From a virus, in IMG/VR virus record IMGVR_UViG_3300009187_000094, positions 1 to 20,493 of that record: a DNA stretch of 20,493 nucleotides, one strand, 5' to 3'. The translations under genes and the position numbers were made by a program. Below are positions 8,003 through 8,856 of the stretch, one piece after another. Position 1 is the stretch's first letter; each line of letters opens with the position of its first letter. Under the pieces are notes generated by a model, which saw nothing but the letters and a program-made list of their open reading frames with translations, was not told the DNA's origin and made no database searches.

Positions 8003-8250
8003 AATTTTAGTTTTCTAAGTTTTAGTTTTGTTTGTGTTTGGGTTTTGTTCTGCTTGAACCTACCCGTTGTTTAGAAAACTTCGGGCGACATTCAAGTTGC
8101 TGGAATATCATTTTCGTTATGTCACGAAATTGATCATCCTGCTTTGATTCTTGTTTGTTCGCCCCGGCACGCTGGGCTTATTGTGCGGCCTGTATGTGGA
8201 TTCTTTGACTTCCACGGAGTCACCATATACGGAATGGTTCGCCGAGATAA
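8003..8250 (-). promoter_or_regulatory. Structured 5' leader of the capsid operon
   Basis: This non-coding stretch precedes the capsid ATG and would be its leader if transcription starts near 8250. Inverted repeats are dense: 8192-8199 with 8223-8230, enclosing 8206-8210 with 8218-8222 (7-base loop); GCAC 8167-8170 with 8183-8186; 8107-8116 with 8125-8134 (one T/T mismatch); and a nested set where CTTGAA 8053-8058 pairs with 8091-8096 around CCCG 8063-8066/8082-8085 and GTTT 8069-8072/AAAC 8076-8079. The last 45 bases before the ATG are A-rich and look unstructured. The outer part of the 8190-8232 stem has two G/T juxtapositions that pair only in plus-strand RNA, so strandedness is not settled. 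No ORF is visible. Confidence 0.5.
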
Positions 8251-8283: not shown

Positions 8284-8310
8284 ATGATTTTTTTAAAAAA
8301 AGATTTTGAC
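8279..8310. repeat. T7A7-centred inverted repeat between two divergent -35 boxes
   Basis: The arms GTCAAA (8279-8284) and TTTGAC (8305-8310) flank a run of seven T (8288-8294) followed directly by seven A (8295-8301). The right arm overlaps a plus-strand TTGACA and the left arm overlaps a minus-strand TTGACG, so the two candidate promoters are back to back. The symmetry could form an operator, a cruciform, or simply an A-tract that bends DNA and opens easily. Confidence 0.65.
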
Positions 8311-8333
8311 ATATGAAAAAAAATAATTATTCT
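8306..8333 (+). promoter_or_regulatory. Sigma-70-type promoter for the plus-strand small RNA
   Basis: A perfect TTGACA -35 (8306-8311) is followed by a 16-base, A-rich spacer and TATTCT (8328-8333), matching four of six -10 positions. Transcription would start near 8340, just before three hairpins and an intrinsic terminator. The coincidence of promoter and terminator about 70 bases apart, on the strand with no genes, is what supports it. Confidence 0.55.
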
Positions 8334-8339
8334 GCTTGC

Positions 8340-8445
8340 ATCTTTCTTGAATTGGAACAGAATTCAATCGGACTACATTTCCTTGGTAACATAGGTGTAG
8401 ATAACCCGTCTTGATACTGTTCCTATCAAGGCGGGTTTTTCCTTT
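8340..8445 (+). ncRNA. Candidate small structured RNA with complementary hairpin loops
   Basis: The predicted transcript, about 105 nt, has no ORF. Hairpin 1 has a perfect 7-bp stem (8347-8353 with 8361-8367) and loop GGAACAG (8354-8360). Hairpin 2 pairs 8373-8377 with 8396-8400 and 8381-8385 with 8390-8395 (bulges at 8378-8380 and 8392), capped by GUAA (8386-8389), a GNRA tetraloop only in the plus-strand RNA. Hairpin 3 is the terminator, with loop CTGTTCC (8417-8423). Loops 1 and 3 are exact reverse complements, so they could kiss within one molecule or between two. The RNA runs against all genes and overlaps none. It could act in trans, sponge a factor, or be a packaged or host-modulating RNA. 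It was not recognised as a known family. Confidence 0.62.
8403..8441 (+). terminator. Intrinsic terminator of the plus-strand RNA
   Basis: A 14-bp stem (8403-8416 with 8424-8437, one U-G wobble) with a 7-base loop is followed by TTTTTCCTTTT (8436-8446, its first two T also pairing in the stem). The GC-rich base of the stem directly before the U-run makes it a textbook Rho-independent terminator for rightward transcription. On the minus strand no U-run follows. No plus-strand gene precedes it, which is the main clue that a small RNA is made here. Confidence 0.85.
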
Positions 8446-8552
8446 TGTATGAAGCGTCAAAGCAGTTCCCAAAAGTAGCTCGCAACGGATGCTATATCTG
8501 TGAGCGAAATATGACAGAAATCATGGCAACTAATTCTTTGGGATAACTTGTC
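8446..8552. other. Non-coding spacer between convergent terminators
   Basis: No ORF longer than about a dozen codons is present. One hairpin pairs GCTCGCA (8478-8484) with TGTGAGC (8499-8505), seven pairs including one G-U that forms only in plus-strand RNA. A TTGACA reads on the minus strand at 8554-8549 but lacks a credible -10. The stretch separates the plus-strand terminator from the minus-strand terminator. Confidence 0.45.
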
Positions 8553-8599
8553 AAAAAAAGCGCAGGGAAAATATGATGTAACCATGCCAATTTTCCCGC
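8553..8599 (-). terminator. Intrinsic terminator of the upstream (terminase to methyltransferase) operon
   Basis: On the minus strand an 8-bp stem (8597-8590 with 8572-8565, GGGAAAAT and ATTTTCCC), extended by a GC pair step around a bulged base (8598-8599 with 8562-8563), is followed closely by seven U (8559-8553). The 17-base loop is larger than usual. It lies about 260 bases after the methyltransferase stop and is the first terminator-like structure leftward in that operon. Confidence 0.65.
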
Positions 8600-8856
8600 T
8601 CAAATTTATTTGGGTAAACACGCTACTCCGAGTTCGGTAAACATTAAGATTAAAGTTTGAATGTTTGCACGGGGTAGGCGAAGGCGCTGCTAATGGGTGT
8701 TTGTTGAGTGTTGGCGCGACCCGATAAAGATAGCAGCGTAATGTCGAAAGCTAAACTGCCGATTCCTATACGGAAGGTATTTTACAAGACACTTACTCAA
8801 TACAATGGGCGAAGTGTCTCTGCTGCCAACCTCAAGCCTTCCAGAAGGTATATTTA
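8600..8856 (-). other. Structured, gene-free 3' region of the upstream operon
   Basis: No convincing gene is present. Perfect inverted repeats lie one after another: 8639-8645 with 8660-8666 (7 bp), CGCTGCTA 8685-8692 with 8731-8738 (8 bp, enclosing GGGT 8695-8698 with ACCC 8719-8722), and AGACACTT 8787-8794 with 8812-8819 (8 bp). There is also a direct repeat GGTAAACA at 8613-8620 and 8636-8643. Transcribed leftward, this would be a folded 3' untranslated region ending at the 8553-8599 terminator, possibly a released small RNA. The perfect pairings fit either strand. Confidence 0.4.

Follow-up and report, generated by a model that had tools for sequence, protein, structure and literature searches.

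Complementary, co-varying hairpin loops in a predicted phage leader RNA upstream of large structured RNAs

In P4-type immunity, a phage leader and a short RNA provide self-specific control of transcription termination. Hairpin loops kiss in the antisense control systems and attenuators of plasmids (ColE1 RNAI/RNAII, I-complex RNAI, and pT181), where new specificities arise from loop changes, the stems matter less, and a terminator can be the output. In IncK1 and IncK2, specificity changes through the loops of kissing RNAs (PMC10724649), and the pT181 attenuators use kissing loops whose changes alter specificity (PMC3753616). Among phage RNAs, the phi29 pRNA kisses through 4 bp between distinct stem-loops of neighboring molecules (PMC7357161), while ROOL and GOLLD are large structured RNAs with covarying, intermolecular kissing loops (PMC12286853).

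We describe a predicted leader RNA from an uncultured phage lineage, for which kissing plasmid RNAs are the closest functional likeness, and phi29 pRNA and ROOL/GOLLD the closest phage likenesses. Unlike the plasmid systems, the phage leader has both partners in one predicted transcript, 21–37 nt apart; one partner is the terminator loop, and a separate overlapping antisense RNA was not found. It resembles the pRNA as a short phage RNA with two hairpins bearing complementary loops, but it pairs over 6–8 bp, carries one loop on an intrinsic terminator, and is followed by a longer RNA. With ROOL/GOLLD it shares the combination of a large structured phage RNA and covarying kissing loops, although the RNAs that follow, here called A and B, are shorter, match no Rfam model, and stand behind a separate terminator-ended leader. 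The likeness to P4-type immunity lies in a phage leader, a short RNA, and a proposed self-specific control of termination; the differences are that no trans target was found and that the lineage shows no evidence of lysogeny. As far as found in the open-licence literature, none of these systems combines the two loops in a single leader and puts one of them on the terminator. Open-licence papers yielded no description of such a leader, and as far as this literature and Rfam show, the leader and RNAs A and B are undescribed.

The DNA analyzed here (the window) comprises 20,493 bases and is a viral contig from IMG/VR. The leader and the RNA behind it comprise the following parts:

8306..8333, plus strand: sigma-70-like promoter, TTGACA-16-TATTCT, from the sequence and the conservation of the −35 box in leaders
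8340..8346, plus strand: predicted RNA 5′ end in the CATCTTTC region, the start site being placed where CAT(C)TT recurs among leaders a few nt 3′ of the −10 box
8347..8367, plus strand: hairpin 1, TTGAATT-GGAACAG-AATTCAA, with a 7-bp stem and the 7-nt loop GGAACAG at 8354–8360
8368..8402, plus strand: linker with an AUUUUCC-like stretch, 21–37 nt across the family; its GUAA-capped hairpin is specific to the window
8403..8441, plus strand: terminator hairpin of 14 bp (8403–8437) with the loop CTGTTCC at 8417–8423, and U-run
8447..8837, plus strand: RNA type B, a large structured RNA beginning 6–7 nt past the U-run, with the closing helix GTATGA..TCAAGC, from RNAalifold on alignment A5

The promoter, hairpin 1, terminator hairpin, and U-run were all located where a first-pass annotation of the window had put them, and the two loops are exact reverse complements, as it had claimed. 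When 300 dinucleotide shuffles of the window were searched for two 7-bp hairpins whose 7-nt loops complement each other, only one such pair turned up, or 0.0033 per shuffle. The folding z of the window RNA is −3.2. Comparison with relatives also upholds the earlier assignment to the plus strand, which runs against the adjoining late genes. This strand is backed by the U-run, the promoter, a U-G pair in the terminator stem conserved in 19/19 sequences of a 19-sequence alignment, and a covariance model score of 88.7 bits on the plus strand versus 26 on the minus. Every leader that comes with upstream sequence retains the TTGAC of the −35 box, while the spacer diverges. The stem of hairpin 1 shows compensations at 2/6 pairs.

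Relatives in IMG/VR were found through the neighboring 402-aa protein, the terminase, and a terminator-stem pattern that leaves the loop unconstrained (29/29 stretches retrieved were homologues). A covariance model built with the loops unpaired brought in more distant members, and its 44 parsed hits gave 28 distinct loop pairs. The loops of L100, misread by the automatic parser, were read by eye as CTTACC/GGTAAG. Searching with the core of RNA A added three leaders beyond reach of the stem pattern (L230, L231, and L228), which carry other stems and other loops. Together, the covariance model and the diverged members yield 47 leaders, gathered with loop content not used in the search; they carry about 31 different loop pairs, which represent about 25 specificities. 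Because filtering on complementarity helped to collect part of alignment A2 (19 sequences), unbiased testing comes from elsewhere, including the 44 loop-blind hits. A candidate second RNA copy in L101 (1876–1991) proved to be a terminator-like hairpin ending another ORF.

Across these relatives, the loops of hairpin 1 and the terminator stay complementary while diverging, as the proposed kissing interaction predicts. Independent variation of the two loops, named beforehand as the observation that would speak against pairing, was looked for; the opposite was seen. Examples include GGAACAG/CTGTTCC, GTAGCCA/TGGCTAC, AGAGAGG/CCTCTCT, and, in the diverged L231, ACGCAAGA/TCTTGCGT; the diverged L230 (AGTGCGG/CCGCACT) and L228 (ACGCCAG/CTGGCGT) likewise still match. 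Loop 1 is complementary to the terminator loop over 6–8 nt in all leaders except L042, whose kissing helix has one internal mismatch. In A2, 133/133 loop-pair cells are paired with double changes at 7/7 pairs, and the loop-pair score is 0.921 versus 0.251 ± 0.039 when shuffled. For the 44 loop-blind hits, the complementarity of each leader's own loops sums to 185, whereas none of 5000 permutations exceeded 109, and mixed pairings attain 6 bp in 2% of cases. The observed conservation is far above chance. Compensation can be followed stepwise, for example between loop ATCACAG in L102 and ATCACGG in L101, and L007 holds a G-U intermediate with one G-U pair in its kissing helix. Hairpin-loop complementarity is thus maintained through compensatory changes, as in a kissing-loop RNA, and the loop-pair duplexes of 6–8 bp have calculated energies of −5 to −12 kcal/mol.

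The loops diversify rapidly between related genomes. L008, L009, L097, L107, and L010 have near-identical flanks, yet their loops read GACGAG, AGAGAGG, or GAAGAGA; in L087, L088, and L105, also with near-identical flanks, they read GTCACAA, ATTACAG, or TTCACAG. Divergence at fourfold sites among these genomes is 0.10–0.28 in most comparisons. The loops diverge at about 0.7–4 times this synonymous rate, with flanks conserved and every change needing a matched partner; for L008/L097 (fourfold divergence 0.12), they change as fast or faster. The pooled excess over five comparisons is modest, at about 21 loop changes versus 12.5 expected by our count. This tempo suggests diversifying selection.

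No third co-varying site appeared in the alignable parts of incomplete contigs from three groups of related genomes, where each genome's own loop occurred at homologous places only in hairpin 1 and the terminator. Neither of the two marks of a plasmid-type system, a separate antisense transcript or a second co-varying locus, was found in these incomplete contigs. Because the search gave each loop no partner but its counterpart within the same RNA, new loop pairs would represent new private specificities, as in plasmid copy control and incompatibility. The leader is single-copy per contig, with one exception that has a copy near each end. In this 68,965-base contig, L108 (1–4583) and L094 (59801–68965) carry identical loops, GTCACAA/TTGTGAC, and one leader precedes type A and the other type B; strain variants on either side of a circular join, or else two units in tandem, could account for the pair.

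The first-pass annotation had also proposed a middle hairpin with a GUAA cap. This hairpin folds in the window, but the GNRA cap is missing and the fold is not conserved in relatives, whose linkers fold like shuffles (mean z −0.16), and we rejected it as a conserved part. The AUUUUCC-like stretch is the only linker feature that recurs across the family. A linker of 21–37 nt lacking a conserved hairpin can bridge stacked helices and so permits pairing in cis. A length of 22 nt is enough to cross a coaxial stack, and the loops may accordingly meet only within one molecule and exert nothing in trans. Identical RNAs may also pair with one another in trans, which would turn the loops into a self-recognition code.

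RNA A or B begins 5–7 nt past the U-run on the same strand. The two types share the 5′ strand GCATGAAGCC or a close variant, their closing 3′ strands differ, and they are exchangeable behind the same leader. RNA A (about 330 nt) is strongly conserved and contains GNRA loops, with 14/76 pairs doubly compensated in alignment A4 (L002:924-1261, L101:1448-1778, L088:3164-3496, and 10 more). RNA B (about 400 nt), the type found in the window, has 27/64 pairs doubly compensated by RNAalifold in A5 (window 8447–8837 plus 16 relatives). Judged across the contigs compared, the leader is linked almost invariably to RNA A or B. Every type A hit has a leader in front of it unless a contig end intervenes; among the type B core hits, two are truncated by contig ends and L235 is a chance match inside a coding region. 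Set beside a mobile homing element, which has an endonuclease gene in its unit, most units here hold RNA A or B alone, and in three contigs a nuclease-like ORF directly follows the terminator and replaces A/B:

L011, 8228–8776, minus strand: nuclease-like ORF, HNH-like by eye, Pfam match absent
L042, 8880–9593, minus strand: nuclease-like ORF, HNH-like by eye, Pfam match absent
L132, 14182–14625, minus strand: nuclease-like ORF, Pfam match to T5orf172, a GIY-YIG-type domain

In L132, a type B tail persists behind the ORF. Rfam, including ROOL, GOLLD, OLE, and group I/II introns, gave no gathering match in the window and no such family around L101 and L002 at E up to 5; SNORA72 in L002 scored below its gathering score and was rejected.

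The arrangement bears on whether the RNA stands free, as first annotated. It does have its own promoter and terminator, but a structured RNA or nuclease-like ORF adjoins the terminator, and no plus-strand promoter-like sites lie between the leader promoter and 8548, inside RNA B. Because the downstream element begins past the terminator without a promoter of its own, a free-standing sRNA alone is unlikely, and the RNA is probably a leader. At the sequence level, the order is that of an attenuator leader: a promoter, a GC-rich hairpin with a U-run, and a further element predicted to be transcribed.

The explanation we favor, to which we give roughly even credence, is a promoter-proximal leader and terminator of a long phage RNA that kisses itself and controls the long RNA by a private loop code. 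Most transcripts would end at the terminator as an RNA of about 100 nt, and read-through would yield the long RNA, replaced in three contigs by the nuclease-like protein. The kissing pair would set the balance between termination and read-through in cis as the terminator hairpin forms, and might act in trans once terminated RNA accumulates; the RNA would thereby be its own antisense. From the sequence, we infer transcription, termination with partial read-through, the effect of kissing on this balance, and the trans action. Of the roles suggested at first pass, which included a dimerizing RNA and control of terminator strength, terminator control is the one that best suits the surroundings.

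The leader and A/B might instead form one fold, with kissing a tertiary contact of the 5′ domain that drifts by compensation and regulates nothing. We consider this unlikely. The loops do conserve nothing but complementarity, A and B are highly structured, and a 21–37 nt linker without a conserved hairpin permits intramolecular contact; however, a complete intrinsic terminator with its U-run is conserved between leader and A/B, and loop change at or above the fourfold-site rate (L008/L097) is unexpected in a paired, merely structural element. Assembly, in which loop 1 binds the terminator loop (loop 3) of the next molecule to give rings, chains, or cages in the manner of ROOL/GOLLD or the pRNA ring on the phi29 prohead, and private loops prevent mixing with rival phages, strikes us as distinctly improbable. 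Geometry allows an intramolecular contact, normally the winner, and Rfam returned no match, although each RNA has two different complementary loops and an attached large structured RNA, the loops diversify without any other partner, and intermolecular kissing loops are known for ROOL/GOLLD (PMC12286853) and pRNA (PMC7357161).

The recurrence of an unpaired CU-rich stretch, in an RNA with a promoter and terminator of its own, would accord with a trans-acting sRNA whose AUUUUCC linker pairs with ribosome-binding sites and whose kissing loops merely stabilize it. This would leave both the rapid loop diversification and the near-constant A/B linkage unexplained, and we regard it as very improbable. 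A DNA-level origin, with quasi-palindrome template switching or inversion copying loop onto loop so that the match needs no function, is scarcely credible. CTTGA..TCAAG arms do occur on both hairpins in most members, but complementarity stops at the loop borders, where adjoining stem bases differ (ATC vs TA); paired loops agree in length at 6, 7, and 8; individual compensated steps can be seen, as can a G-U intermediate; and the match persists in L011, whose terminator arms read CTCAATA, as well as in L230, L231, and L228, whose stems differ. The ancient inverted duplication raised at first pass fails to explain matching during divergence, as complementarity is confined to the loops and the stem sequences differ.

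The favored leader-and-terminator explanation can be carried a step further, tentatively and with an expectation well below even that it holds. The leader would contain both halves of the code and use the terminator loop to sense how much of the leader is present. Phages with a common code would then silence each other's long RNA, as incompatibility or superinfection control. If true, selection would continually make new codes, and leader control would extend over A and B as two new members of the ornate phage RNAs; a code acting in trans would give phages an RNA-only means to distinguish self from rival. Some 25 naturally occurring loop pairs, each self-complementary and distinct from the others, sit on near-constant stems and form a test set for RNA–RNA specificity and its evolution, and the collection would supply orthogonal terminators. 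Two large structured phage RNAs missing from Rfam have also been uncovered.

In the lineage of the window, which comprises many contigs of 60–71 kb, the unit adjoins the 402-aa gene. In another lineage, it precedes a dCMP-deaminase-like ORF, assigned by Pfam in L231 and by sequence motif in L087, L088, L100, L102, and L105. L049 matches L045 upstream yet lacks the unit, which is therefore accessory. The leader and leader-plus-A DNA had no match in phage isolates and plasmids, nor did the neighboring proteins, and 0/16 pattern hits in cellular genomes were homologous. A set of 50,697 phage records contained no match to the 402-aa protein or the terminase. Searches of Pfam and PHROG with the 402-aa protein gave no match and those of structure-database sequences nothing significant; its AlphaFold model is poor (pLDDT 35), and a capsid role is guesswork from position alone. 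The leader of the 402-aa gene (window 8036–8234, minus strand) contains the conserved blocks AAGCCCAGCGTGCCGGGGCGAAC and CTTGAATGTCGCCC..GGTTCAAG (alignment A7). These blocks are present also in L046 and L049, contigs without the sRNA unit, and this leader is possibly another structured 5′ UTR.
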